DNA of 38,392 nucleotides, from the IMG/VR virus record IMGVR_UViG_3300030108_001831, positions 1 to 38,392 of that record, one strand, 5' to 3'. The notes below the pieces were generated by a model that was given only the letters and a program-made list of their open reading frames with translations, did no database searches and was not told the DNA's origin. The stretch comes from a virus. The position numbers and the translations under genes are program-made. Positions 2,260 to 35,766 of the stretch are shown one piece after another (the stretch's first letter is position 1; every line of letters starts with the position of its first letter).

Positions 2260-2271
2260 AGTTATATATTC

Positions 2272-2300
2272 TGCATACTAAAAACACATAATGTCGTCAA
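2272..2300 (-). promoter_or_regulatory. Candidate promoter of the riboswitch cassette
   Basis: Minus-strand TTGACG (2300-2295), a 17-nt spacer, then TATGCA (2277-2272), with a second AT-rich TATATAAC just downstream. Initiation about 7 nt after the -10 would start the RNA only a few nucleotides before aptamer stem P1. The -35 is good and the -10 is weak. Confidence 0.5.
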
Positions 2301-2302
2301 TG

Positions 2303-2331
2303 AAAAAGCTAGTTTTTATCATGGAACTAGC
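2303..2331 (-). terminator. Terminator of the minus-strand early operon
   Basis: Minus-strand GCTAGTT / AACTAGC form a perfect 7-bp stem with a 10-nt loop, followed by TTTTT. It lies 18 bp after the last gene of the early operon (2349-2543) and just before the riboswitch promoter, so it separates the two transcription units. Confidence 0.7.
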
Positions 2332-2348
2332 AAACCATTGTGGGCAAA

Positions 2349-2543
2349 TTACATACCTTCTGCTTCTTGCGTAGGAACTTCAATAGTAGCTTTTTGTTTA
2401 GGCTTAACAAATACTTCGACATCAGAATTAAAAAACTTATTTAGTGTAGATTCAAATACACTAACTGTATCTTCTAGTGTCCAACTATGTTTATCCTTTA
2501 TACCTACCATTGTATCATCATCTTCTATTATTATTTTAATCAT
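2349..2543 (-). CDS. 64-aa acidic protein of unknown function
   Basis: The ATG at 2543 overlaps the stop of the phosphoesterase gene (ATGA). The product begins MIKIIIEDDDTMVGIKD and includes SWTLEDTVSVFESTLNKFF, ending in a PTQEAEGM tail. Beta-strand then helix character suggests a small compact domain. No family is recognised. It is the last gene before the operon terminator. The opposite-strand frame over the same bases is a shadow. Confidence 0.65.
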   Translation of the reverse strand: MIKIIIEDDDTMVGIKDKHSWTLEDTVSVFESTLNKFFNSDVEVFVKPKQKATIEVPTQEAEGM

Positions 2544-3361
2544 AGTTTCATTACCTCGTTAATACACGTTTCACCATTTATTATAACAGCACATCCTATT
2601 GCTGGTTTCTTTCCTCTTTTTGCATAATCAAACGCAAAACTAGAAAAATCTATACCACAACCTACTTGGCAACTAAATACTGATCTATTGATTCCAAACG
2701 ACCAATGAGTATATAGTTCTGTATGTCTGTGACCTTGTACACAAGAACTCATCTCATTTAAAGCTCTTGTTTTTGCAGTACCTGCTTCTCCATGAATATA
2801 TGATACATTGTCAATAGATACTTCATCTGTAAATATCCATCCTGGTGTTTCTAATACTTCTTTGTATGATTTAATCCAACGTCTAGGTACATTGCTTGTA
2901 ACTGATTTACGCATAACCATTCTATCGTGATTACCTATAGTTACATATGCTTCTGGAAAAGCCTTATTGTATGGTTTAAGTCTTTCAATAGCTAAGTCTA
3001 ATTCATCTCTACCAGACATACCATCAGGATCAGTTTCGTGATAAGATGTGTAATGATTGTCTATTACATCTCCTATAAATACAACAGTATCACAATCATA
3101 TTTTGCATACACGTTTATACAAAACTCTAGGTATCCATCTAAATCAAAAGGACAATGCAAATCTCCTACACATAATACTCTACGACCACCATTAATAACA
3201 CATTGATCTATTGGATTAGGTATTTTCTTTTTCTTATTTAGATAACGTAATGCACGTTTAACTGATGAAGCAGCAATACCATATTCCATAGCTGTTTCTG
3301 CTATACCAACTTGCTCTACTCTTGTAAGTATTTCTCTAGCCTTTTTTAGACTGTAAGCCAT
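2540..3361 (-). CDS. Calcineurin-like metallophosphoesterase with N-terminal HTH
   Basis: A 273-residue protein from ATG at 3361, chosen because TAGGAGGAGTT precedes it; the longer frame to 3397 lacks a ribosome-binding site. Residues about 1-45 look like a helix-turn-helix (GIAETAMEYGIAASSVKRAL). The metallophosphatase motifs follow in order: VGDLH (D-x-H), FIGDVIDNH (GDxxD), IGNHD, HGEAG and GHRH. Such enzymes hydrolyse phosphoesters with two metal ions; phage members may act on nucleic acids or nucleotides. The substrate is not visible. The HTH may guide it to DNA. Confidence 0.88.
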   Translation of the reverse strand: MAYSLKKAREILTRVEQVGIAETAMEYGIAASSVKRALRYLNKKKKIPNPIDQCVINGGRRVLCVGDLHCPFDLDGYLEFCINVYAKYDCDTVVFIGDVIDNHYTSYHETDPDGMSGRDELDLAIERLKPYNKAFPEAYVTIGNHDRMVMRKSVTSNVPRRWIKSYKEVLETPGWIFTDEVSIDNVSYIHGEAGTAKTRALNEMSSCVQGHRHTELYTHWSFGINRSVFSCQVGCGIDFSSFAFDYAKRGKKPAIGCAVIINGETCINEVMKL

Positions 3362-4524: not shown

Positions 4525-4553
4525 ATACTTATATATTAATAGGTATTTGTCAA
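4525..4553 (-). promoter_or_regulatory. Promoter candidate for the SSB-like gene
   Basis: Minus-strand TTGACA (4553-4548) is a perfect -35 and sits inside the last codons of the methyltransferase gene. An AT-rich TATATAAGTAT stretch follows where a -10 should lie, though its exact register is unclear. It could raise SSB expression above the rest of the operon. Confidence 0.5.
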
Positions 4554-5822
4554 CCTATTAAACAAGGTAACAAAAGCTTTTGTTGCTGTCTGTGGCACTA
4601 CTCCATTTCCGAGAAGTCTAAGTCTGTCCACCCTACTTGAAGACCCATTAGTTGTTCTACCCAACTTGGGTTTAACTCTAGGCTCTTCCCATTCGTGTTG
4701 TTCTTGATTTGGTCTCCTTGGTATCCTTTCTTGCATCCATATATCATTTTTGGTAGTGACATATCTCGGAATGTCTTTGTTCCTGGTGTGTCCTTCCAAT
4801 CTCTCGCTGTTGGTGTCGGAAATGTTTCTACTGCATCCCTTAACTTGGCCCCAAACGTCTGATTGCTTTTGTGACGTTTGCTCTTGAATGTCCCATCTTC
4901 CACTATCGTTTCTATCCGACCCCCCTCTGCATCCGATGTCCTCGGTGTCGGATAATTCATCGCATCCTTGTATGCTTGAACTGATTCCGGATTTACTTGT
5001 TCTCTCAGATTGCTTGGCTTCTCTCTGTTCTTTCTGATTCCTTGGGCCTGCTTCATTGAAGCATTGTAGTCCTTTGGTGGTAACATATCCATTGTGTTTG
5101 GCGTGGCCCAATTCTTGTCGTTCACTTCTGCTTGTTGTGCTAGACTTAAAGAATTTCTTTTCAGTTGGCTTGCATCCATTTGTCTTGTTATCTGACTCGT
5201 TGTTGGAGTTGACCAATTCTTTGCTTGTTGTGCTAGTGGTATTCCTCCCTTCCCATTCGGTCTTGTCGAGTCTGTTGCACTCGCTCTCGGAGTAGCCCAT
5301 GATGAAGACTCTTTTTCTCTGATGTGGGAAGCCGACTTCACTCGCTGAGAATACTCCTGCCGTTGCTCTGTAACCCAATCTTTCCAAGTCTTTAAGCACA
5401 TAGTGGAGAACTGATTCTCCTTCTGCTGTTTTGCTTGAGATAATTCCTTCAACGTTTTCGAGGAAAACAATTCTTGGTCGACATTCTTCGATTCCTCTAC
5501 TGAAGTGTGGATAGAGATGTCTAGGGTCTTCAACTCCTTTTTTATGTCCTGCACAACTGAAGGGTTGACAAGGGAAGCCTCCTGATAAGATGTCCACTCT
5601 TCCACAAAACTCTTTGTATGGGAAGGTCTTAACATCCGAGTAGATAGGTGCTGCATCCAACTGTTCGCTTTCCATCTTCGAAACCAAGTTTGCGATTGCG
5701 AAGGCTTCGATCTCCACATAAGCGATTGTTCGCAAGCTTGGTAAAACTCGTTCAAGTCCGATTCCGATTCCATCATAACCTGCACAGAGTGATAGGTGTG
5801 TAATTGCTTTGGTAGTATCCAC
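4536..5822 (-). CDS. DNA (cytosine-5) methyltransferase
   Basis: 428 residues from GTG at 5822. Motif I (LCAGYDGIGIGLE, residues 12-24), motif IV with catalytic Cys85 (GGFPCQPFS), motif VI (LENVEG, Glu122), motif VIII (QRKRVF, about 169-173) and the C-terminal LLGNGVVPQTA (motif X region) are all intact. Residues about 180-370, the target-recognition region, are S/T/N/Q/R/E-rich, with five phrases like LSDTED, LVNSNNE and ISDTNSE. GTG is preferred to an ATG at 5870 because GGGAGGAG lies just upstream and the longer start lies inside helicase coding. The enzyme would methylate phage or host DNA. Nearly all of it is co-encoded with another frame. Confidence 0.93.
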   Translation of the reverse strand: MDTTKAITHLSLCAGYDGIGIGLERVLPSLRTIAYVEIEAFAIANLVSKMESEQLDAAPIYSDVKTFPYKEFCGRVDILSGGFPCQPFSCAGHKKGVEDPRHLYPHFSRGIEECRPRIVFLENVEGIISSKTAEGESVLHYVLKDLERLGYRATAGVFSASEVGFPHQRKRVFIMGYSESECNRLDKTEWEGRNTTSTTSKELVNSNNESDNKTNGCKPTEKKFFKSSTTSRSERQELGHAKHNGYVTTKGLQCFNEAGPRNQKEQREAKQSERTSKSGISSSIQGCDELSDTEDIGCRGGSDRNDSGRWDIQEQTSQKQSDVWGQVKGCSRNISDTNSERLEGHTRNKDIPRYVTTKNDIWMQERIPRRPNQEQHEWEEPRVKPKLGRTTNGSSSRVDRLRLLGNGVVPQTATKAFVTLFNRLTNTY

Positions 5823-5824
5823 AT
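4598..5824 (-). CDS. Overlapping-frame protein with TP repeats, inside the methyltransferase gene
   Basis: A 408-codon frame, one register off the methyltransferase over essentially the same DNA, starting at ATG 5824 with GGGAGGAG upstream and overlapping the helicase stop (TAATG). Five repeats [WYF]-x-TP occur at residues 176, 204, 239, 291 and 335 (WATPRAS, NWSTPTTS, NWATPNT, YPTPRTSD, FPTPTARDW). The end has LNPSWVEQLMGLQVGWTDL. I recall this TP-x-x-RD plus NPxWVExLMGxPxGWT signature from proteins annotated near phage methyltransferases; their function is unknown. So long a second frame in an AT-rich genome is very unlikely by chance. It may modulate the methyltransferase (inference). Confidence 0.7.
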   Translation of the reverse strand: MWILPKQLHTYHSVQVMMESESDLNEFYQACEQSLMWRSKPSQSQTWFRRWKANSWMQHLSTRMLRPSHTKSFVEEWTSYQEASLVNPSVVQDIKKELKTLDISIHTSVEESKNVDQELFSSKTLKELSQAKQQKENQFSTMCLKTWKDWVTEQRQEYSQRVKSASHIREKESSSWATPRASATDSTRPNGKGGIPLAQQAKNWSTPTTSQITRQMDASQLKRNSLSLAQQAEVNDKNWATPNTMDMLPPKDYNASMKQAQGIRKNREKPSNLREQVNPESVQAYKDAMNYPTPRTSDAEGGRIETIVEDGTFKSKRHKSNQTFGAKLRDAVETFPTPTARDWKDTPGTKTFRDMSLPKMIYGCKKGYQGDQIKNNTNGKSLELNPSWVEQLMGLQVGWTDLDFSEME

Positions 5825-5833
5825 TACTCCTCC
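5820..5833 (-). promoter_or_regulatory. Shared ribosome-binding site and ATGTG double start
   Basis: Minus-strand GGGAGGAGTAATGTG combines four signals: the last codons and TAA stop of the helicase, a strong Shine-Dalgarno, ATG (5824) for the TP-repeat frame and GTG (5822) for the methyltransferase. The two start codons overlap by one base and could compete for the same ribosome. Confidence 0.75.
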
Positions 5834-7095
5834 CAACTTTTGTGTTTAAATGTTTGTGTTGATTTATCAAAATCTAAAACTGCAACTGGAGATAATCCAT
5901 TACGATTCTTCTGCCATTTACATACAACTGTATCATCACTCGTTTCGTGATTCTGATGAATTGTTTTACCATTTACATCAATACCTTCATAAGGAACTGT
6001 ATGTAAATAAAGTATTACATCACATAAGTTTTCTATATTTCTACTATAAGCTACAAGTCCTTCAGCAGATGGATGTGCTAATAAAAATATTGGTATCTTA
6101 ATATCATTTCGTAAATCTACTAACTGTTGAATAAAGTAATCATACATAGCAGTTCTGTTTGTAAAGTTTCTACCACCATCATTTATACAAAGAAGATTAT
6201 CAATCATAATACAATCAGCACCATTTTTCTTTTCTGATAGGGCCCATGCTCGTATTTCCATAATATTCATAGACCCATCTCTAATATTTAAATTAAGGTC
6301 TTTTAGTTTTTGTGAAGCATTTAAAACTTTTTCTCTTTCATTATCGGTCATAAATCCTCTAGTCCTAATGGTGTACGTATTAACTTGACCAAGATGTGCT
6401 ATAAATCTACCTACTAATTCTTGCTTAATCATTTCAATAGATGCAAAGCTACACTTCATACCCTTGCTATGTAAGTGACATATATATTGTAGAAGCCAGG
6501 CTGTCTTACCTGTACTTCTAGGCGCATGGATAATACATACTTCACTACTTAATCTTGATAATTTAAAATTCCAATCTTCAAAGGGCCATTCTAAATGACC
6601 TGTGTTTCCTTCTTCTGCATCTTTAACCCATTCATCACATATCTTATCCATACTGCTATCTTGATTATTTATTGAGCTTCTTACTAAACTACTCATAACT
6701 CTATCTGCTGAGCTTTGCCCATCGTATGCTTTTATTAATCCTGATTCATACACTTCGATTTCTTTTCTTAAATCATATAATTCTAATAATCTATCTCTGT
6801 ATGATTTACTATGACTAGGTACAATCGTGCTATCTTGTAGTTTTAATAAATATTCTTCACCACCACATTGATGTAATATTTTTTTATCATTTAAATAATT
6901 TCTAACAGTTAATGCATCCATGTCCATATTTTGTACATACATTTCTCTTAATGCATCCCATAAATATTTATGTCTTTCTGTATAAAAATGTTTGCTTGAT
7001 AATGATATACAATTTTTCATTCTTGATGGATCAAGTAATACTGACCCTATAACACCTGATTCGCTTGCTAAACAATTAGGTTTTTGTTTACTCAT
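5824..7095 (-). CDS. DnaB-type replicative helicase
   Basis: A 423-residue protein. The N-terminal domain resembles DnaB_N (ESGVIGSVLLDPSRM, then HKYLWDALREMY and LTVRNYLNDKK). The RecA-like domain has Walker A near residue 190 (APRSTGKTAW), Walker B (CIMIDNLL), a motif-3-like FLLAHPS and an arginine-finger-like KWQKNRNG. It unwinds DNA ahead of the polymerase. No primase domain is present, so host DnaG is probably used. The start overlaps the initiator-like gene (ATGA) and the stop overlaps the ATG of the TP-repeat frame. Confidence 0.92.
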   Translation of the reverse strand: MSKQKPNCLASESGVIGSVLLDPSRMKNCISLSSKHFYTERHKYLWDALREMYVQNMDMDALTVRNYLNDKKILHQCGGEEYLLKLQDSTIVPSHSKSYRDRLLELYDLRKEIEVYESGLIKAYDGQSSADRVMSSLVRSSINNQDSSMDKICDEWVKDAEEGNTGHLEWPFEDWNFKLSRLSSEVCIIHAPRSTGKTAWLLQYICHLHSKGMKCSFASIEMIKQELVGRFIAHLGQVNTYTIRTRGFMTDNEREKVLNASQKLKDLNLNIRDGSMNIMEIRAWALSEKKNGADCIMIDNLLCINDGGRNFTNRTAMYDYFIQQLVDLRNDIKIPIFLLAHPSAEGLVAYSRNIENLCDVILYLHTVPYEGIDVNGKTIHQNHETSDDTVVCKWQKNRNGLSPVAVLDFDKSTQTFKHKSWEE

Positions 7096-15839: not shown

Positions 15840-16039
15840 TGGAAGCTATAAATCTTGTAAAGATATATGAATCTGCATTAAATACAGAAAATGGTGATAA
15901 AATTATCCAAGACTTGCGTGATTTTTGTGGTATTGATAAGCAAGCTGGCTCTCAGCTATCACACGCAGAATGTGCATACAAAAATGGAATGCAAGATATG
16001 TTTAGATATATCGAAGCAATGGTATCAAATAATGACTGA
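15839..16039 (+). CDS. Bbp19-like small virion protein
   Basis: A 66-residue protein whose start overlaps the portal stop (TAATG). The core DLRDFCGIDKQ ... AYKNGMQDMFRYI resembles the short Bbp19 structural-protein family found next to portals, in which a short helix and a G-x-R/Q-x-x-F-x-x-I pattern are conserved. It is probably a minor structural or assembly factor. The match is by eye. Confidence 0.65.
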   Translation: MEAINLVKIYESALNTENGDKIIQDLRDFCGIDKQAGSQLSHAECAYKNGMQDMFRYIEAMVSNND

Positions 16040-16685
16040 AGAACAATTTATTTTAAGAACGAGATCATACGTTCAAGGTAATGAAGGATTTAAAAACTAT
16101 GTATATAAAGATACTCGTGGTTTTTTATCTATGGGATATGGTCATAAACTAACAGCAGAAGAAAAAAAGAAATATAAATTAGGAGATAGAGTAGATGAAA
16201 AATTACTTGAAGATTATTGGGAAAAAGATTGGACAACTCATTACAACGCTGCGAAATCAATTGAAGGATATGATAAACTTAGCCTTCAGCAAAAAGTAGC
16301 AATAATTGATTTAACATTTAATATGGGTGTTAATTGGGTTACAAAGTTTCCTAATTTAATAAAAAATATTAAACAAGCTGGATTAGCAGAAAACGATATA
16401 ATGAAAGAATTATATATATCAAATGCTGCTAATGAACTTAAATATAAAAATTATAAAGAAAATAATTTAGAGCCATCAAAGTATTGGGGCCAAGTAAAAG
16501 GCAGAGCAATAAGAAATTATCAGTTATTACTAAATGATTATTTTGAGTGGGATGATTATGCTGATCCAATAGTTGATGATGAAGATGATGAAATAGAAGA
16601 AGTGTTTCAAGCAACAGAAGATAGATATTCTGGTATGTTTGGAAACGATAACATGGATAGTTTTTATCCAACAACAAGACCATAA
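16032..16685 (+). CDS. GH24-type lysozyme (endolysin) with acidic tail
   Basis: 217 residues from ATG at 16032; the longer frame upstream reads through the Bbp19-like gene. The catalytic region NEGFKNYVYKDTRGFLSMGYGH aligns with T4 lysozyme: Glu, then Asp nine residues later, then Ser where T4 has Thr26. The downstream NMGVNW and KGRAIRNYQLLL segments fit the C-lobe. GH24 enzymes cleave the sugar backbone of peptidoglycan. Residues about 170-217 are an acidic extension (DDEDDEIEEVFQ) not typical of the family. No signal peptide is seen, so release needs the holin-like protein. Confidence 0.85.
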   Translation: MTEEQFILRTRSYVQGNEGFKNYVYKDTRGFLSMGYGHKLTAEEKKKYKLGDRVDEKLLEDYWEKDWTTHYNAAKSIEGYDKLSLQQKVAIIDLTFNMGVNWVTKFPNLIKNIKQAGLAENDIMKELYISNAANELKYKNYKENNLEPSKYWGQVKGRAIRNYQLLLNDYFEWDDYADPIVDDEDDEIEEVFQATEDRYSGMFGNDNMDSFYPTTRP

Positions 16686-26550: not shown

Positions 26551-29500
26551 ATGAAAATGAACGATAAGCAGTATACTCTGCAAGAAACTACAGTTCGTGA
26601 TATAGGAGTAAATCCTTTTTTCGAAAATTTAGATGTAGATTTTGTACCTAGTTTAAAAGAAAAATCTGATCGAGAATACTTTAGAAGTGATCAAGGTAAA
26701 CTTACTCAAGCTCGCATTAAAACTAGAAATATGTGGCGAGAAACTTATGGAGGAAAAAGTTTTTATAGAGATTATAATAGAGAAATGCGTGATGATGAAG
26801 TTGATGCTGCTCTTGTTCAATATTTTAAATTAAATCCTGATACTCCTATTGATTACTATAAAATTCAAGAAGATTTAAGAAGGCAAAGAGATTTATATTA
26901 CACCGGTGATTTTGAAACCTTAACTGGTGGAGAAATGTTTAGAGGAGCTTTAGGTGCATTTATGGAGTGGGGTGATAATGTTAAAAGAGAAGCCTTGTCT
27001 CTTGGAATTGATTTAATGAGCACTGGTCAAGCACTTCGTACAAAACAAATAGGTCAATCTATTCCTATGGCTACTTTTCAACAAATGCCTTTTCCTGGTA
27101 CTACTGTTCCTAAAGAAAAAAGAGAAGAAGAAGCAAAAAATATAAAAGATGAAGCAACTTTCTTAAAATTAAAGGTTGATCAACTAGAAGGGTTATTAGA
27201 AAAATTTCCTAGTTTTAAAGATGATTTAGAAGAATTAAGAGCAAAAGCAGGTGATGAAGAAGCAAATTGGTTTTTATCATCTTTTGCTGCTACTTTAGCA
27301 AATGCACCTAACTTAGTAGCAGGAGGATTAGGCGCAAGATTATTTGGTAAAAGTGGATGGATTTTTTCTATGGCTGGTATGTATGCTCAAGAAAAAGATT
27401 CAGCTTTTCAGTATTTTAAAGAAATATATGATATATCTTCATCAACAACTTTAGAAGAAATTAAAAAAGACCCTACGCTTTCAGAAAGATATAATCAAGC
27501 TACTAAGCTTGCTAGAGCATATGGATTACTTTCAGCAGGTATAGAGTATATCCAAACAGGTGGTTTTTTAAGAATGGCAGGTATTAAAAAAGGTGCTAGA
27601 CCAAAAACTTTATCTGAATTATTTAAAAATAAACCTACTAGAGAATTTATTACTAATTTACAAGGTCATATAAAAAGAACTACAGGTATGGCAATTGAAA
27701 ATATTGTAGAAGAAGTATCACAAGGTATTTTATATAATCAATTTGCTAACATGGCAATTACTGATGCTTTTTTAAATTATGATATAGATAAACGTGATGA
27801 AATGACACCACTTTTTAAAGATTGGGAAGAAAATTCAAGAAGTGCTTTGCAGTTAACAACCATACTTGCTCCTGTAGGTGCTTTTAAAAATTTTATGGTG
27901 CAAAAAAACTATAGGTCTAAAACAGTTCAAAGATTAAAACAACAAGGTTTTACTCATATGGAAGCATCAGAGTTTGCATTAGATCTAGCTAATGCTGCAG
28001 GTAATAAAGAAGAATTTAAAAAAGTTGCTGCAAGAATACAAAGTCAATTTGAATCTAAAGAAGCTAGTAAAGTAATATTAGAAAAAAATAAATTAAGACA
28101 AACTTTAGAAGATGATTCTGGTCTTAAAACTATGGATGGTAGTGTTTTTACTGATCAAGAGTTTGATGCTTTAGCTACAACTTATTCTACTGAAGAGCTT
28201 ATTAAAATGATTCCTAATAAAGAATATCAAGATTTATTTATTGCTGCTGTAAATGGAGATATGGAAGCTAGAATAGAATATAATAAATCAATTCAAAATA
28301 TTGTTAATATAAATAATAACAAAAATAAAAAAAGAAAAGAAACAGAAATACCACCAAGAATACAAAAAGTAATTACAAAAATAGAAGATGGAGAGCTTGA
28401 TAAAAGTCTTGATATTGAAGAAGGTGAAACTATTGAACAAGCAAGAGAAAAAGAAATAAATAGAATTTTAGAAAAAGAAGGATTAAAACCTAGAGAACAA
28501 GAAACGACTGAAGAAGCTGCTGAAGAAACTACAGAAGAAACAATACCTGATCAGCCAACAGAAGTAATGCCTGAAGATACATCTTATAATGATGTAAAAA
28601 CAGAAGCTAAAAAATTAGGTATTCCTATAAAAGGTAAAAAAGCCGAACTAATAAATAAAATAAACAGAGAACGTGCTAAACGTGGTGCAGAACAACAAGC
28701 TAAACAATTTGAAGATACACCTACTAAATATCAAGAAAAATTTCAACGCAAGATGGCTCAAGTTATGCAAAACTCAACTAGAGCATTACGCAAAATAGCA
28801 CCTACTGTAAAAATATTATATGCTAAATCTGAAGAAGATTATTTAAGAATAGTAGGAAGAAGCTCTAGAGGTGCATATGTAGCAAGTGAAAATACTGTTT
28901 ATTTAAATCCTTCAAAAGCAACTCAAGGAACTGTAGTACATGAAACTGTACACGCTATACTACAATATAAACTTGGTAATGATAAAAACATACAAGCAGT
29001 AACAAATGTATTACTTAATGATATTTTAAAAGATTCTATTTCTTTTGCAGCAAAAATAAGAATTAGAAGCTACATGGATAAATATATAAAACAATTAAAT
29101 TTTACTGAAGAAGCAGCCTCTGAAGAAGGTGTATCAGAGTTAGCAGCAATACTTCTTGATAATATTAATTATGTTCAACCATCTTTAAAAGCAAGAATAA
29201 TTGATTTTGTATCTAGAATATTTGGAATAGATTTTAAAAATGATGAAATGAGAGCAATAAAAATGTTACAAGCTATTGCTTCTAAAACTACTAAAGGTGA
29301 AATGATTTTAGAATCAGATGTATCTATATTAGATGATATAGCTAAATCAACAATACCTGGATATTCTAATGAAAGTCAAACAGCAGAAGCTAACAGTAAA
29401 TTTCAATTAAGTCATACTGATCCTATAACAGGTTTTACTTATGAATATGACCTTCCTGATGGTGAGTTTCAAGAATTAGAAGATAATGGTAATGTTACAA

Positions 29501-32500
29501 AAGATCAAAGTATAACTGATTTTGTAGATAAATTTATGGCTGTTACTTATCCTGATAGTATGTTTACAGGAACAATTACAAATGAAAATGGAGATATATT
29601 AGTTGAAGGATCAGGTGGTATAAACTTTGTTTTAAAATTTCATAAAGGTAATTATGTGTGGGCTGCAGGAAAAAAATCTCTTGCTCAGGGATTATTGAAT
29701 AGATTAAATGAATCATTTGAAGATAATAATGGAGTAGCATATTTAGCATTAGCATTAGGAAGTAGAGAAAAACTTTTAAGTAACACACAAGCAAATAAAG
29801 GTGTAATAAATATTATACAAGATTTTATTAACAATAAAAAAATATCAGTAACTCAAGAACAGTTTGATAAAATATTAAAAGATGTTTATGGAACAAATAA
29901 TATTTTAGAAATATATGAAAAGCTATTACCAACAAATACCGAATTTTCACAAAGAAAAGCATTTGCATTAAAGATAGCAGGAGAAATTGCAAAAATAGCA
30001 AAAGATTCAGAAATAGAAGCAATTTTAGAAACTGCTAATATTCCTCAAACACCTTTAAAATTTCAAGAAAAAGCAAAACCCAAAGAACAATCAAAAGCTA
30101 AATTAGTAAGATATTTTGTTGAAGTAATGACAGAGCCTTTTCTTACTAATACAGGAATAACAGATGAAGATCAAATGATAGATAAAAAAGAAATAGGTCA
30201 AATATATGCTGTTATTGAAATAAGAAAAGGAGCAACTAAGGCTGCACTTTCAATACAAGATGTTACAAATCAACCTACAGTAAAACAAAATGAATCGTAT
30301 CCTTATATTATTCAAGGAGATCAAGATATTAAAACTAAACTTCATATATTAAAAGATCGTTATCCTATACATGAAGTATTTGTAGGTAAAGATGGTGAAG
30401 TAATAGAAAAAAATTTACCACAAAAACAAGTTCCTAATTTTGGTATATCTAAATCAACACTTAGAGTAGTAAATCCTAAATTTCAATTAGAAGATACACA
30501 AGATCAATATCAATTAAATTTTGATGTAATACCACAAGTTAAAGATGCATTAAGACAATACTTTGATGGTAAAATTTCATACGAAGAGTTTTTAAGAATA
30601 CAAGATAAGTTTGATCCTATAAGGAGATTTGAAGTTCTTCCTGAATTACCAACTAATCAAGAAATGAAAGATGTATTAGATGAAGGTAAAAAAGAAAAAG
30701 TAGGCATAAAGCCAAAAGATGGAGAACAAGTTTCATTACGTTTAGATATACCTGCTTATACAAGAAAAGACAAAGATGGTAAAAGAATTGGTAAATATGT
30801 AGTTACTATTCATAAAAAAGGAATACAAGGAGTAATAGGATATACATCAACTGGTAGGGCCAAAAATGTAAGAATGACTTCACCAAAATTAAGAACTGCT
30901 CAAATAGCTCTTAAAGAAACTCCTAAAGGGCCTGTGTCTGCTATTAATGGACAATATGTTGAAGCTACAGATGAACAAAATTATAAAGATGCTCAAGAGT
31001 TAATTAATGACCCAAATTGGGTACAAATAGGATTTAATCCATTTAGACGTTCTTTCTTTTATGTTAGAGAAGGTGCATTAAGAGGAAATCCTGTTGTAGC
31101 TGCTGATGAAGTAATTCAAATTGGTGGATTAGTTTTAGCTAAAAATATAACAATGGCTTCGGTTGAAAACTTTAAGTTTAACGAAAAACAAAAAGAACAA
31201 TTAGAAATTTTAAGAGATGATGCTAAATTCCAATTAGATGAAACAAAACCTAAAATGTTTTTTGGTATGGCTGGTATAGGCACTATAGAAATGGCATTTG
31301 CTAATACCGAGTTTAGAAACTTGTTTAATATAAAACCTGCTGAATATAATCAATCTATTGTTGATGTTCATAATGCTATACATGGTACAGGCTATGCTTC
31401 ACAAGACTTTATGGACCTTGATCCTAATGAGTTTAAAGATTATGTATATTGGCACGCATCATTTCCTTGCCAATGTTTTAGTGCATCTAATCCAAATGGA
31501 TTAAAAGCTAATGGTGAGCCTAAACAAGGTAATTTAACAAAAGCTGATTTTGATAAAGAAATGCAGTTAGCAAAACATGGTGCTAAAATTATTACTACAT
31601 CTAAACCATTAAATGTAACAATAGAAAACGTACCTAATTATCAAGGATCAGATCAATATGCTGTATTAAGAAAAGCATTACAAGATGCTGGATATACAAT
31701 AAGAGAAGAAGTTGTAAAGGCACAAGATTATGGTGCTATATCAAGTAGAAAAAGATTTATTGTACAAGCTACGTTAAGAAAAGATAAAGATGGTAATCCT
31801 GTTTTACCACCTGTTCCTGAACAACAAGGTTTTGGTGATTGGTATAAAGCAATAGAGAAGTTTATAAAAGATGCACCTCATTATGATACACTACAAGAAA
31901 AAGTAAAAACTAAACCAGCTAAATACATTCAAGAGTTACTTGAAAAAATAGACAGAAAACATAGAGATGCTCGCAATAAAGATATTATCTTTACTGAAGA
32001 TATTGCATATATAGCTACAGGAGATGAAAGTAATTTTTCACCACAAGGTTTACCAGGGCCTGCAATACAAGCAGGATTAAGATCAGATAGAGATATGTCT
32101 AAAGGCTCTAAAAAGATTCCAAAACTTTTACTACCTGTAAGAAAACTAGTACAAGAACAAGGTGTAAATGCTGTTGCTGAAATGTATGGTGTTCATCCTA
32201 GTTTAGTAAAAGAAGTATATGACTCACCATTCCCTTTTATTATTAAAAGATTAAGTCAACAAATGTTATTAGCATATATGGGATTAGACCCTAATTTAAA
32301 TTTAGGATTAGATAAACTTACACCAAGTCAAATAACACAATTACAAATACTAAAAGCTGGATTAGGTAACGGAGTACATGAAAAAACAACTATGTCACAT
32401 TTAAAACCTATGATGCAAAACTTTGATAATGCACCTAAATTTCAATTATCTGATGATGAGATTGATGCTTTATTAAATCAAATAGATAAAGAAATAGAAG

Positions 32501-35500
32501 CAGAAGTAAACAAAGAATACGATTTAGCTGCTAAAGGTGCAGAAAAAATAGGAGAACAAGATTATACATCTGTAGATGAGTTATATGGAGACCTTGTTGA
32601 TTTAGAAGAAGAAGAAGAATTAGAAGGTAAAACAAGATTAACTTTAAGAGATGCTGCTAGATTATTTGATAGTTTTAATTTAGGTACTTTTTCAAAAGAA
32701 AAACAAGTTAATACATTTACAGGGTTTGCTAAAGCAGCAGATATAAATGCATCTATAGAAGATTTATTATCATTAGCAGATTTAGTCTTAACAGGCGACA
32801 CTCCAATACTAACAGATATTCAACACTATCAAATGATATTAGGTGTTACTCAATTAAAAAATGAATTAGAAGAAATAAGAAACTCTGAAGAAACAGGAAC
32901 AATAATAAATTTAGATGCTGATACTAGAGGATCATATGAAACAAAATTAGAACAAATGGAAAAATTAGTTCGTGCAGACACAGCATCAGGTAGTCGTACA
33001 GGATCAGCATTAAGAGCTAGGTCGGTAGCAGCAAATAATGATTATTCATATTATGGTGTTATAAGAAGAGCTACTAAAATGAAACGTGGTATGCCTTTAA
33101 CTAAAGAAGAAATTTCTAAACTAGCAGAAGTTCAAGCTAAATATGAAAAAACTAGAAGAGAAGTTAATAAATTAAGAAGTAAGATTGAAAAGTTAACAAA
33201 CGATGAAGATATATCATCAGCACAAAGTTTCTTTGATCAAGTGTTAGTAGAAAAAGAAAAATTTCCTAAAGGTAAAATAAACAAACTAATAAAAGAAATT
33301 AAACAAACTCTTAAAAATAAAGGTTATAATTTAGAAAGTAGTGGTAAGTTTCAGTTAGGTTTTGGTATAGATGCTAAATTAGCTAAAGATATAAGAGCTT
33401 ATGCTAAGTTATTAATTTTAGAAGCAGATGTAAAAACTTTAAATGAAGTAGTTGCTTTAATAAAATCTGATCCTGAATTTATGGATGTTTCTGATGCTGA
33501 TATATATGGCTCAATATCTGGAAGAATACAAAGAGTACCTCGTACAAAATCAGAAGCACAAAAAAGATTACAAGCTCTTACATTACAAGCTGATTTACAA
33601 GTGCAAATAAACAATGCATTAGTAGGAGTATTTGATCCTAAACGTGCTACTAAACCACCATTAGAAGAAACTAAAGATTTAAGAAAGAAACTTAATAAAC
33701 TAAAAGAACTTGCACATGATGCTGCAACAGAAGATGAAAGAGCAGATAAAATATTAACACAAGTTCGTAACATAGAAGAAATGATAGATGGTTTATATAG
33801 ACCAATAAAAAAACCAACTAAAATAAAATCTGATAAAATACAAGCAGCATTAGATAAGTTATATACTGCTAGGGCAGAGTTAAGAGCGCAAGATAGATTA
33901 TTATTATTACAAACTATTTTAGAATATGGTGAGCCACCTAAATTTACTAGACAAAAACGTGACCCACAATCTGATAGATTAGAAAAGTTAAGAACAGACA
34001 TTAAGTTATTAGAAAAACAAATACGAGAACGTAAAAAAGTAGAAGCTGATAAAGAAAGACAAAAAAGAATTAAGGCTGAACAAGAACAAAAACTACAAGA
34101 TTTAAGTAAACAAATATTAGGATGGTATAGAGATAATGTAGGGCCTGCTTCTAAACCTGAATTAAATGAAACACAAAAAGGTATTAAAGAAGCTAGAAGA
34201 TTACAAAAACAACAAGATAGAATAGGAGAACTTGTTGAAATAATAGCTACAGGTAAACTGCCACCTAAAAATAAAAAAGTTGAAATAGCTGATCCTATGG
34301 GCTTTTTAAAAACTATAGATACTTTAAAAGAAGAATTAAAAAATCAAGAGTGGTATAGACAAATACAACAAAATAAATACGAAGAAAAACGTATAGAACA
34401 AGTAAAACAAAAAATAAAAGAACAAGAAGAGCTTATAAAATCTGGAGACTTTACTGATTATCTAACACCTAAAGAAAAGAAAGAAATAGATAATCCTCAA
34501 TTAAAAGCATTGTTATTACAACAAGCAACAAATACTAGAATAATTCGTAAAACAATAAATGAGTTAAGACCAAGAACTAGAATGGAATTAGCAGGTGATA
34601 TAGCTAGTTTACCTCGTGCATTTATGGCAACTGCTGATATGTCAGGAACATTTAGACAAGCATTTTTAATGGGTGTTAGAGACCCAAAAGCGTTTGCAAA
34701 AGCATTTAAGTATGCTGCTAAAGCTGCTGTTGATCCAAAGTTTGCTGAAGAAGTTATGTTTATTTTAGAAAGTGATACTAATGCAGCAAGAAGATTAGAA
34801 TCAGGTTTATTCTTTTCAAATCTTGATACTGGTATGATTGATTCTGAAGAATCATTTAGTTCTAATATGTTACAAAAACTTTATAAAATACCTGGTCTAG
34901 GTAAGCCATTATCTGTTGTTATGGGCGCATCTGAAAGAAATATGGTAGTAATGTTAAATGTATTAAGAGCAGCTGCTTTTGATAAATATTGTGAAGCAGT
35001 TCCTAACGCTACTTCTAACGAGTTAAAAACTTTTGCTCATTTTATAAATACAATGAGTGGTCGTGGTGATTTAGGAAAACTTGAGCCTGCAGCAGATGGT
35101 TTATCTTATTTATTTTTCTCACCTAGATTTGCTGCATCAAGATTAATGGTTATACCAGAATCTGTTGGTATTGGTGTTAGTCCACTTGTTAAGAAAGATA
35201 AATTAGGTCAATTAAAAACAAAACAAGATAGAGAAGGTGACGTTCGATTAGCAAAAGAAGTTGCTAAATATTGGGGATCATTAGCAGTAACAACAGCTAT
35301 AGTATTTGGATTAGCTGCTTTAGCAGGAGCTGAAGTAGGAGATGAGCCTGATGAGCCTGATTTTGGTAAATTAATTTTTGGTAATATGAGATTAGATATT
35401 TTTGCTGGTGTTGGTCAGCCTATGAGATTGTTAGCTAAAGCTTTAGATAGTGCATATAAAACATCTACAGGACAAGAGGTAAAGCTTGATTTATGGAAAG

Positions 35501-35766
35501 AAACACAAAATACATTAATTAAATATAAAGTAACTCCTTGGGTATCAGGTGTTATTGAATTACTTCAAGGTAAAGATTTTGTATCAAGACAAGATAAAAG
35601 TGCTATGAAAGTTCTTCTTCAAAGATTAGCACCAATAACATTTTCAAACTTATATGAAAATATATATGAAAGAGATGCAGAAGGATATCAAATATTTACA
35701 GAGTTTGCAGCAGAGTTCTTTGGACTATCTGTCTATACTCAGACAAGACGTGGTGGTAGTTTATAG
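26551..35766 (+). CDS. Giant polyvalent internal virion protein: SAP, zincin and C5-methyltransferase domains
   Basis: 3,071 residues, a quarter of the genome, after AGAGGATAATTTTT. In order: helical N-terminal part (FMEWGDNVKREALSLGID); SAP-like DNA-binding motif about 677-709; zinc peptidase motif HETVH at 797-801 with a downstream Glu-rich segment; undefined domains about 950-1310; a polyvalent-associated domain about 1310-1558 (ADEVIQIGGLVLAKN); C5-methyltransferase about 1568-1960 with FGMAGIGTIEM, Cys1640 in FPCQCFS, Glu1692 in IENV and SRKRF at 1732-1736; coiled coils; and a C-terminal phage domain (about 2671-3071) with a hydrophobic segment near 2906-2930. KFQL recurs at 950, 1310, 1559, 1963 and 2266. 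It takes the T7 gp16 position and is likely ejected with DNA. Confidence 0.88.
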   Translation: MKMNDKQYTLQETTVRDIGVNPFFENLDVDFVPSLKEKSDREYFRSDQGKLTQARIKTRNMWRETYGGKSFYRDYNREMRDDEVDAALVQYFKLNPDTPIDYYKIQEDLRRQRDLYYTGDFETLTGGEMFRGALGAFMEWGDNVKREALSLGIDLMSTGQALRTKQIGQSIPMATFQQMPFPGTTVPKEKREEEAKNIKDEATFLKLKVDQLEGLLEKFPSFKDDLEELRAKAGDEEANWFLSSFAATLANAPNLVAGGLGARLFGKSGWIFSMAGMYAQEKDSAFQYFKEIYDISSSTTLEEIKKDPTLSERYNQATKLARAYGLLSAGIEYIQTGGFLRMAGIKKGARPKTLSELFKNKPTREFITNLQGHIKRTTGMAIENIVEEVSQGILYNQFANMAITDAFLNYDIDKRDEMTPLFKDWEENSRSALQLTTILAPVGAFKNFMVQKNYRSKTVQRLKQQGFTHMEASEFALDLANAAGNKEEFKKVAARIQSQFESKEASKVILEKNKLRQTLEDDSGLKTMDGSVFTDQEFDALATTYSTEELIKMIPNKEYQDLFIAAVNGDMEARIEYNKSIQNIVNINNNKNKKRKETEIPPRIQKVITKIEDGELDKSLDIEEGETIEQAREKEINRILEKEGLKPREQETTEEAAEETTEETIPDQPTEVMPEDTSYNDVKTEAKKLGIPIKGKKAELINKINRERAKRGAEQQAKQFEDTPTKYQEKFQRKMAQVMQNSTRALRKIAPTVKILYAKSEEDYLRIVGRSSRGAYVASENTVYLNPSKATQGTVVHETVHAILQYKLGNDKNIQAVTNVLLNDILKDSISFAAKIRIRSYMDKYIKQLNFTEEAASEEGVSELAAILLDNINYVQPSLKARIIDFVSRIFGIDFKNDEMRAIKMLQAIASKTTKGEMILESDVSILDDIAKSTIPGYSNESQTAEANSKFQLSHTDPITGFTYEYDLPDGEFQELEDNGNVTKDQSITDFVDKFMAVTYPDSMFTGTITNENGDILVEGSGGINFVLKFHKGNYVWAAGKKSLAQGLLNRLNESFEDNNGVAYLALALGSREKLLSNTQANKGVINIIQDFINNKKISVTQEQFDKILKDVYGTNNILEIYEKLLPTNTEFSQRKAFALKIAGEIAKIAKDSEIEAILETANIPQTPLKFQEKAKPKEQSKAKLVRYFVEVMTEPFLTNTGITDEDQMIDKKEIGQIYAVIEIRKGATKAALSIQDVTNQPTVKQNESYPYIIQGDQDIKTKLHILKDRYPIHEVFVGKDGEVIEKNLPQKQVPNFGISKSTLRVVNPKFQLEDTQDQYQLNFDVIPQVKDALRQYFDGKISYEEFLRIQDKFDPIRRFEVLPELPTNQEMKDVLDEGKKEKVGIKPKDGEQVSLRLDIPAYTRKDKDGKRIGKYVVTIHKKGIQGVIGYTSTGRAKNVRMTSPKLRTAQIALKETPKGPVSAINGQYVEATDEQNYKDAQELINDPNWVQIGFNPFRRSFFYVREGALRGNPVVAADEVIQIGGLVLAKNITMASVENFKFNEKQKEQLEILRDDAKFQLDETKPKMFFGMAGIGTIEMAFANTEFRNLFNIKPAEYNQSIVDVHNAIHGTGYASQDFMDLDPNEFKDYVYWHASFPCQCFSASNPNGLKANGEPKQGNLTKADFDKEMQLAKHGAKIITTSKPLNVTIENVPNYQGSDQYAVLRKALQDAGYTIREEVVKAQDYGAISSRKRFIVQATLRKDKDGNPVLPPVPEQQGFGDWYKAIEKFIKDAPHYDTLQEKVKTKPAKYIQELLEKIDRKHRDARNKDIIFTEDIAYIATGDESNFSPQGLPGPAIQAGLRSDRDMSKGSKKIPKLLLPVRKLVQEQGVNAVAEMYGVHPSLVKEVYDSPFPFIIKRLSQQMLLAYMGLDPNLNLGLDKLTPSQITQLQILKAGLGNGVHEKTTMSHLKPMMQNFDNAPKFQLSDDEIDALLNQIDKEIEAEVNKEYDLAAKGAEKIGEQDYTSVDELYGDLVDLEEEEELEGKTRLTLRDAARLFDSFNLGTFSKEKQVNTFTGFAKAADINASIEDLLSLADLVLTGDTPILTDIQHYQMILGVTQLKNELEEIRNSEETGTIINLDADTRGSYETKLEQMEKLVRADTASGSRTGSALRARSVAANNDYSYYGVIRRATKMKRGMPLTKEEISKLAEVQAKYEKTRREVNKLRSKIEKLTNDEDISSAQSFFDQVLVEKEKFPKGKINKLIKEIKQTLKNKGYNLESSGKFQLGFGIDAKLAKDIRAYAKLLILEADVKTLNEVVALIKSDPEFMDVSDADIYGSISGRIQRVPRTKSEAQKRLQALTLQADLQVQINNALVGVFDPKRATKPPLEETKDLRKKLNKLKELAHDAATEDERADKILTQVRNIEEMIDGLYRPIKKPTKIKSDKIQAALDKLYTARAELRAQDRLLLLQTILEYGEPPKFTRQKRDPQSDRLEKLRTDIKLLEKQIRERKKVEADKERQKRIKAEQEQKLQDLSKQILGWYRDNVGPASKPELNETQKGIKEARRLQKQQDRIGELVEIIATGKLPPKNKKVEIADPMGFLKTIDTLKEELKNQEWYRQIQQNKYEEKRIEQVKQKIKEQEELIKSGDFTDYLTPKEKKEIDNPQLKALLLQQATNTRIIRKTINELRPRTRMELAGDIASLPRAFMATADMSGTFRQAFLMGVRDPKAFAKAFKYAAKAAVDPKFAEEVMFILESDTNAARRLESGLFFSNLDTGMIDSEESFSSNMLQKLYKIPGLGKPLSVVMGASERNMVVMLNVLRAAAFDKYCEAVPNATSNELKTFAHFINTMSGRGDLGKLEPAADGLSYLFFSPRFAASRLMVIPESVGIGVSPLVKKDKLGQLKTKQDREGDVRLAKEVAKYWGSLAVTTAIVFGLAALAGAEVGDEPDEPDFGKLIFGNMRLDIFAGVGQPMRLLAKALDSAYKTSTGQEVKLDLWKETQNTLIKYKVTPWVSGVIELLQGKDFVSRQDKSAMKVLLQRLAPITFSNLYENIYERDAEGYQIFTEFAAEFFGLSVYTQTRRGGSL

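Follow-up and report, generated by a model that had tools for sequence, protein, structure and literature searches.

The window analysed here, positions 1 to 38,392 of the IMG/VR virus record IMGVR_UViG_3300030108_001831, contains a single open reading frame (ORF) for a giant polyvalent-type protein of 3071 amino acids, in which the tetrapeptide KFQL recurs five times downstream of a zincin-type metallopeptidase domain bearing the motif HETVH. These tags are conserved in related proteins, lie outside domain cores and co-occur with the peptidase in other giant proteins; they are probably polyprotein cleavage sites for the zincin of the same chain.

Five copies of KFQL in one giant protein

The five positions listed in a preliminary description of the sequence are exact (Table 1). 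KFQL is the most frequent tetrapeptide of the protein, with five copies against 0.064 predicted from composition; in 1000 shuffles of the chain no tetrapeptide reached five copies and KFQL occurred at most twice, which rules out chance or composition as the source of the copies. Three codon spellings are used by the five copies, which thus do not form a DNA repeat. The same description considered the tags evenly placed and counted KFQE at residue 1170 as their relative; the intervals, however, are 360, 249, 404 and 303 residues, and KFQE, although present, falls outside the tag set, as does KFQR at residue 730, because neither is kept in relatives of 40-43% identity.

L006, an IMG/VR locus whose protein (3257 amino acids from stop to stop) is 86% identical to that of the window, keeps all five KFQL and has about 145 additional residues, starting right behind the KFQLDE of site 3. 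In this additional segment (L006 6600-7040) a Cys/His/Asp pattern was seen by eye, and Pfam gave a sub-threshold match to YunG (E-value 0.017). The relatives of 40-43% identity, L028, L029 and L031, have K-x-Q-[LMPQ] at the five places, with Lys and Gln in 15 of 15 cells of the alignment and Leu in 12 of 15; identity ranges from 0.67 to 1.0 at the sites and from 0.20 to 0.48 over the 20 residues to each side. The alignment of homologues proposed in the preliminary description thus finds the motif persisting at all five places while the linkers diverge.

The HETVH motif lies 153 residues ahead of the first KFQL. The window peptidase can be aligned with a profile family to which proteins with LPD38 and ART-PolyVal domains also belong; H86, E87, H90 and the distal E148 of A9 are invariant in 21 of 21 aligned members (rows chosen for HExxH), and a profile of this family, grown from one member, collects 67 of 98 HExxH segments. 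An AlphaFold model of residues 712-966, built with a 21-row alignment, has a mean predicted local distance difference test score (pLDDT) of 82 and a predicted template modelling score of 0.77; the modelled fold ends at about residue 934, and site 1 (model residues 239-242) falls in the low-confidence linker behind it, in the sole internal stretch of the model with pLDDT below 50. The top rows of VIA-align are zinc metallopeptidases, namely lethal factor, Certhrax, PPEP-3 and Zmp1, with Z-scores of 6.4-7.9, the best of them (7.9, lethal factor) being below 8, and with about 7-14% identity over about 140-165 residues; a Foldseek search of the PDB with the model gave no match at an E-value of 0.001 or below. 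Among these rows lethal-factor-type zincins (lethal factor, PPEP, Zmp1) come closest to the modelled peptidase, and the likeness appears to be one of fold only.

The chain joins unrelated enzymatic domains: besides the zincin peptidase (alignment and model), it holds a C5 DNA methyltransferase, which is its sole strong Pfam domain and, as had been noted before, lies between two KFQL, those of sites 3 and 4. An AlphaFold model of residues 1301-2000 had a mean pLDDT of 46 and was not used. No named LPD or ART-PolyVal domain of Pfam was found in the protein at an E-value of 1 or below, and at its C-terminus Pfam LPD38 was not reached; such domains are present in L047, L058, L071, L153, L162, L166 and L170. 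Since it has none of these named domains, the window protein is handled as polyvalent-like, and not as a catalogued architecture. Behind the fifth tag (residue 2266) the protein has neither KFQL nor K-x-Q-L.

Table 1. Features of the giant protein and their coordinates in the window (residue numbers in brackets)
Feature	Position (nt)	Strand	Basis or remark
Giant polyvalent-type protein, 3071 amino acids	26551..35766	+	Single ORF
Zincin-type metallopeptidase domain (724-934)	28720..29352	+	Alignment and AlphaFold model
HETVH motif (797-801)	28939-28953	+	Peptidase motif
Junction site 1, KFQL (950-953)	29398..29409	+	Aligned KFQQ/KFQL/KFQP in L028/L029/L031
Predicted product 2 (953-1312, 40.5 kDa), limits inferred	29407..30486	+	Domain common to Flavobacterium elemo phages
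Junction site 2, KFQL (1310-1313)	30478..30489	+	Aligned KSQL/KAQL/KAQL in L028/L029/L031
Mobile domain A3 (1376-1545), core of predicted product 3	30676..31185	+	548 IMG/VR relatives, best 80 kept
Junction site 3, KFQL (1559-1562)	31225..31236	+	KFQL in L028, L029 and L031
C5 cytosine DNA methyltransferase match (1574-1794), core of predicted product 4	31270..31932	+	PF00145, E-value 1.6e-17; phrog_116, E-value 1.2e-21
Junction site 4, KFQL (1963-1966)	32437..32448	+	Aligned KPQL/KAQL/KAQL in L028/L029/L031
Junction site 5, KFQL (2266-2269)	33346..33357	+	Aligned KNQL/KTQL/KSQM in L028/L029/L031
Predicted C-terminal product 6 (2269-3071, 90.8 kDa)	33355..35763	+	No internal site

Recurrence of the tag and co-occurrence with the peptidase

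The contigs of the comparison set are metagenomic; they were gathered with a profile of A3, the domain between sites 2 and 3, as a tag-free query (80 IMG/VR loci), and with alignments of ART-PolyVal, whose query has a tag at both ends, and of LPD38 (80 loci each, overlapping partly). When 97 proteins were searched blindly for tetrapeptides that recur in a single chain, FSLR, KFSL, RYSL, KYSL, YSLR and RFSL were among the highest-ranking words, together with words from duplicated ART domains. When unrelated flanks were required, KFQL of L006 was the strongest word among 117 proteins (p 9e-9), followed by ISFR, YAGG, ASLR, IRES, FSAR, RYSL and NVMP, all with p of about 2e-7 or less; some word under the cut-off was found in 38 of the 117 proteins, compared with 12-29 in each of 20 shuffled sets, which leaves only the strongest words meaningful. 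Unsupervised motif finding on the linkers behind the peptidase recovered shared domain text and not the tag.

Once the known domains and the 40 residues surrounding them had been masked, [KR][FY][SQ]L was counted 63 times in 137 nonredundant polyvalent ORFs (18.1 expected) and [KR][FY]SLR 23 times (0.5 expected); 137 further large ORFs from these contigs gave 4 (6.1 expected) and 0 (0.1 expected), respectively. Outside the window lineage, 54 proteins with the family peptidase have 103 sites of [KR][FY]SL where 6.8 are expected, and these fall into 48 distinct contexts, compared with 0-18 contexts for each of 27 comparison patterns; replacing Ser with Gln, Thr or Ala in the pattern abolishes the signal, and Gly leaves 34 sites in 9 contexts. 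The trimer class [KR][FY][SQ] was rejected as a signal, as it is not enriched (144 against 133.6 expected).

The tag is spelled K-x-Q-L in the close relatives of the window and mostly [KR]-[FY]-S-L in the main peptidase clade. The agreement of site words within a chain is 0.074, against 0.030 when words are permuted between chains (0 of 2000 permutations), a difference that may owe something to amino-acid composition. A peptidase tree of 52 rows shows 5 changes of the letter, S or Q, that prevails in each row, whereas in 300 shuffles the minimum was 8 and the mean 11.8; 8 of the 13 Q rows belong to the window's clade, the other five resting on one or two matches each. The five KASLR copies of L170 are five different 15-mers. 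Other words recurring in unrelated contexts are IRESR, ISFR and FSAR, four times each (L184, L046, L045), which are possibly further site dialects.

The sites occur at 0.73 per 1000 amino acids downstream of the first HExxH, against 0.14 upstream, where 6 of the 11 sites stand 71-74 residues before the motif, at about the start of the peptidase domain. The preliminary description had placed KFQL between domains; the tags avoid the cores of four domain profiles (peptidase, ART, A3 and LPD38), with 127 sites outside them (17.7 expected) and 4 inside (3.0 expected), three of which fall on the last two residues of A3. Thus placed are also the KASLR copies at 819 and 971 of L170, which enclose ParB_N (906-966), and that at 1668, 34 residues behind which a topoisomerase-I domain begins; in L166, six tags stand within 1048-2443, past the peptidase and ahead of LPD38.

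Co-occurrence was counted with strict sites in proteins of at least 1200 amino acids. The 65 proteins with the family peptidase have 126 sites (20.2 expected), the 22 proteins with another HExxH have 6 (5.7 expected; one protein with two) and the 32 complete proteins without HExxH have 3 (5.8 expected); seven further proteins without HExxH, cut at the 5′ end and possibly missing the peptidase for this reason, have 10 (1.3 expected). Outside the peptidase family, repeated sites were seen only in such cut proteins and in the one protein with another HExxH. Two or more sites are found in 34 of the 65 proteins with the family peptidase and in none of the 32 without HExxH (p 3e-8), and, with A3 and ART masked, there are 64 sites in 169,661 residues of the former and 2 in 53,685 residues of the latter (p 4e-6), both p values ignoring kinship. 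All 33 proteins of the LPD38 set with two or more sites have the peptidase. At the exit of A3, KFQL or KYSL/KFSL is present in 6 of 13 peptidase-bearing proteins and in 0 of 21 others (15 without HExxH and 6 with another HExxH, two cut proteins being left out).

A different word, F-[NADSQEK]-[EQNKDRMS]-G-G, was observed 36 times in 37 A3 proteins without peptidase, against 2.6 expected (3 for the reversed pattern), and 3 times in 16 A3 proteins with peptidase (2.0 expected). These A3 proteins without peptidase include L008 (10315-14499), L061, L086, L110 and L183. The F-x-x-G-G word, which may be a second junction signal, often stands behind A3.

Eight cultured relatives with LPD38, seven of which have no HExxH, show no recurrent tag, and the same holds for JC1 and four ART matches among cultured phages; the full pattern was not found in any cultured phage among these and Ruegeria phage 45A6. 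ART-PolyVal gave 2 matches in 296 genomes of one phylum. L286 (PQ492659.1, Limnohabitans phage DC33) has a 39-kb genome with an open frame of 3133 amino acids and is filed under Inoviridae, the filamentous phages, a filing that looks wrong.

Cleavage at the tags and alternative explanations

In the proposed mechanism, the zincin domain would recognise a short linear site, K-F-Q-L in this protein, within the linkers that border the domains, and would cut its own chain, or that of a neighbour, at the tags. The scissile bond would most likely be the one between Gln and Leu, because lethal factor, according to PMC3153234, cuts just before an aliphatic residue and near basic ones. Six products are predicted, of 108, 41, 29, 45, 34 and 91 kDa, namely an N-terminal part carrying the peptidase, then four pieces from the middle, including the C5 DNA methyltransferase, and a C-terminal piece, with no internal tag in either end part; cutting would take place either in the head or after injection, and related phages would share the design, each lineage with its own spelling of the site. 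Processing by the HETVH peptidase had already been put forward in the preliminary description: conservation, position and co-occurrence agree with this proposal, the cutting itself and its enzyme being putative, whereas the even spacing and KFQE fall away.

Several points weigh against this explanation. Cleavage at the tags, the in-chain peptidase as its enzyme, the cut bond and the timing are what we infer. No site separates the extra domain of L006 from the methyltransferase; KSQL, KPQL and KNQL in relatives indicate that position 2 need not be hydrophobic, elemo-type relatives have a single tag, RFQA or KFQA, after the peptidase, and Ruegeria phage 45A6, whose peptidase follows the enzymes, shows no recurrent tag. 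Of the 65 family-peptidase proteins, 31 have one strict site or none, and 17 of the 50 peptidase proteins of the LPD38 set likewise have fewer than two sites. The site pattern was partly chosen on the data in which it was counted; the test at the A3 exit depends less on this choice, since the A3 query holds no tag, and the five-site alignment and the codon check are independent of it. Finally, lineage confounds the association of tag and peptidase: the peptidase changes twice on the LPD38 tree (64 proteins) and five times on the A3 tree (39 proteins), both built without those proteins that have other zincins or are cut at the 5′ end, and therefore the association and lineage are not independent and a kinship-corrected test is without power. 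None of the phylogenetic pairs contradicts the association, the changes being too few for significance.

The tags could also be short linear motifs by which an uncut chain docks to a packaging protein or to the ejection machinery. They are short, recurrent, located in linkers and variable at one position, as docking motifs may be, cleavage at them is so far a prediction, and the virion RNA polymerase of phage N4 is packaged whole, as told by Iyer et al. 2017 (PMC5512222); docking, however, predicts neither one tag per junction nor the scarcity of tags ahead of the peptidase, nor their absence from complete polyvalent proteins without HExxH, and is in our view unlikely. It is distinctly unlikely that the tags are cut by a different enzyme, be it the prohead protease of a phage or one of the host's proteases. 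Head proteases do cut virion proteins in other phages (PMC10052503), and the activity of the in-chain peptidase is itself predicted; the tags, however, track the family of the in-chain peptidase, the other large ORFs of the same contigs stay at 4 sites against 6.1 expected, and Pfam names no protease family in the 10 other window ORFs scanned.

Explanations without a role for the tag fare worse. In ART-PolyVal modules the tag is close to the domain and partly travels along with it, as if it were the first or last strand of adjacent domains, spread by domain shuffling; such an origin is very improbable, given the 48 dissimilar contexts of the tags, the A3 domain, which has a Q-type tag, an S-type tag or none depending on the chain, and a spelling that varies less within a chain than from chain to chain. 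Seams of recombination at the DNA level, which the domain inserted at site 3 of L006 with respect to the window might recall, are, like chance, barely credible: repeated copies have different codons, as do the five KASLR of L170, and chance is excluded by the shuffles.

A zincin-like metallopeptidase is the commonest domain of polyvalent proteins, and the proteases typical of the polyproteins of eukaryotic RNA viruses are cysteine or serine proteases. The polyvalent proteins of phages and conjugative elements, like the window protein, are giant chains of several domains that combine enzymatic effectors with a zincin-like peptidase; their autoprocessing was proposed from the in-chain peptidase by Iyer et al. 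2017 (PMC5512222), who left open whether they act whole or cut, and the main text of that paper names no recurring site, unlike the KFQL of the window protein. DdrB of phage P1, also polyvalent with a peptidase domain, is described in the same paper (PMC5512222) as being processed to 76 kDa before it is packaged, but its peptidase is C-terminal, unlike that of the window protein. The analogy with the polyproteins of eukaryotic RNA viruses, with an embedded protease and repeated consensus sites at the junctions, is drawn there as well (PMC5512222); the window system differs from them in belonging to a DNA phage, in its zincin protease and in its unrelated effectors.

The open PMC literature gave no record of KFQL with phage; none of the four words KYSL, RYSL, RFSL and KFSL, searched with polyvalent or prophage, was among the matches listed, nor was a recorded cleavage site for polyvalent or giant phage proteins. 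The idea of autoprocessing was thus known before, and what sequence comparison appears to add is a defined recurrent site, for which no recorded precedent was found. More tentatively, and with somewhat less than an even chance of being right, one entire class of phage polyvalent proteins may consist of polyproteins with a readable cleavage code, in which zincin and sites co-diverged in each lineage (S-type, Q-type, perhaps FSAR, EISFR and KASLR), so that effector modules can be swapped between phages provided that they bear the local tag, and polyvalent proteins without peptidase use a second, unrelated junction code, aromatic-x-x-Gly-Gly. A defined lineage-specific site yields an exact prediction of bonds, products and protease; if it is true, the borders of effectors, including many domains without a known fold, could be read from the sequence, and, if cut, these chains would be to DNA phages what polyproteins are to RNA viruses, with modular swapping of counter-defence domains.

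Genomic context and minor observations

The giant ORF is preceded by a tail protein gene (phrog_376), by an ORF resembling internal virion proteins (phrog_418) and by an unmatched ORF of 605 amino acids; by this gene order beside virion genes the window protein may be carried in the virion or injected. The relative from Flavobacterium phage elemo, L007 (QMP85339.1, 3694 amino acids), is annotated as 'structural protein' and is 36% identical to the window protein over residues 801-1310; its RFQA behind the peptidase is at residue 1683 of the annotated protein, or 1692 in the open frame. In some relatives A3 has a sub-threshold Pfam match to Phage_L5_gp82.

Elsewhere in the window, Pfam finds Phage_lysozyme at 15891-16685 (E-value 4.6e-9), between the portal and capsid genes. 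A second, stand-alone C5 methyltransferase-like ORF was recognised by eye on the minus strand at 4536-5870, in the part of the window with the highest GC content (0.401), where a long overlapping ORF (4598-5836) runs in another frame.

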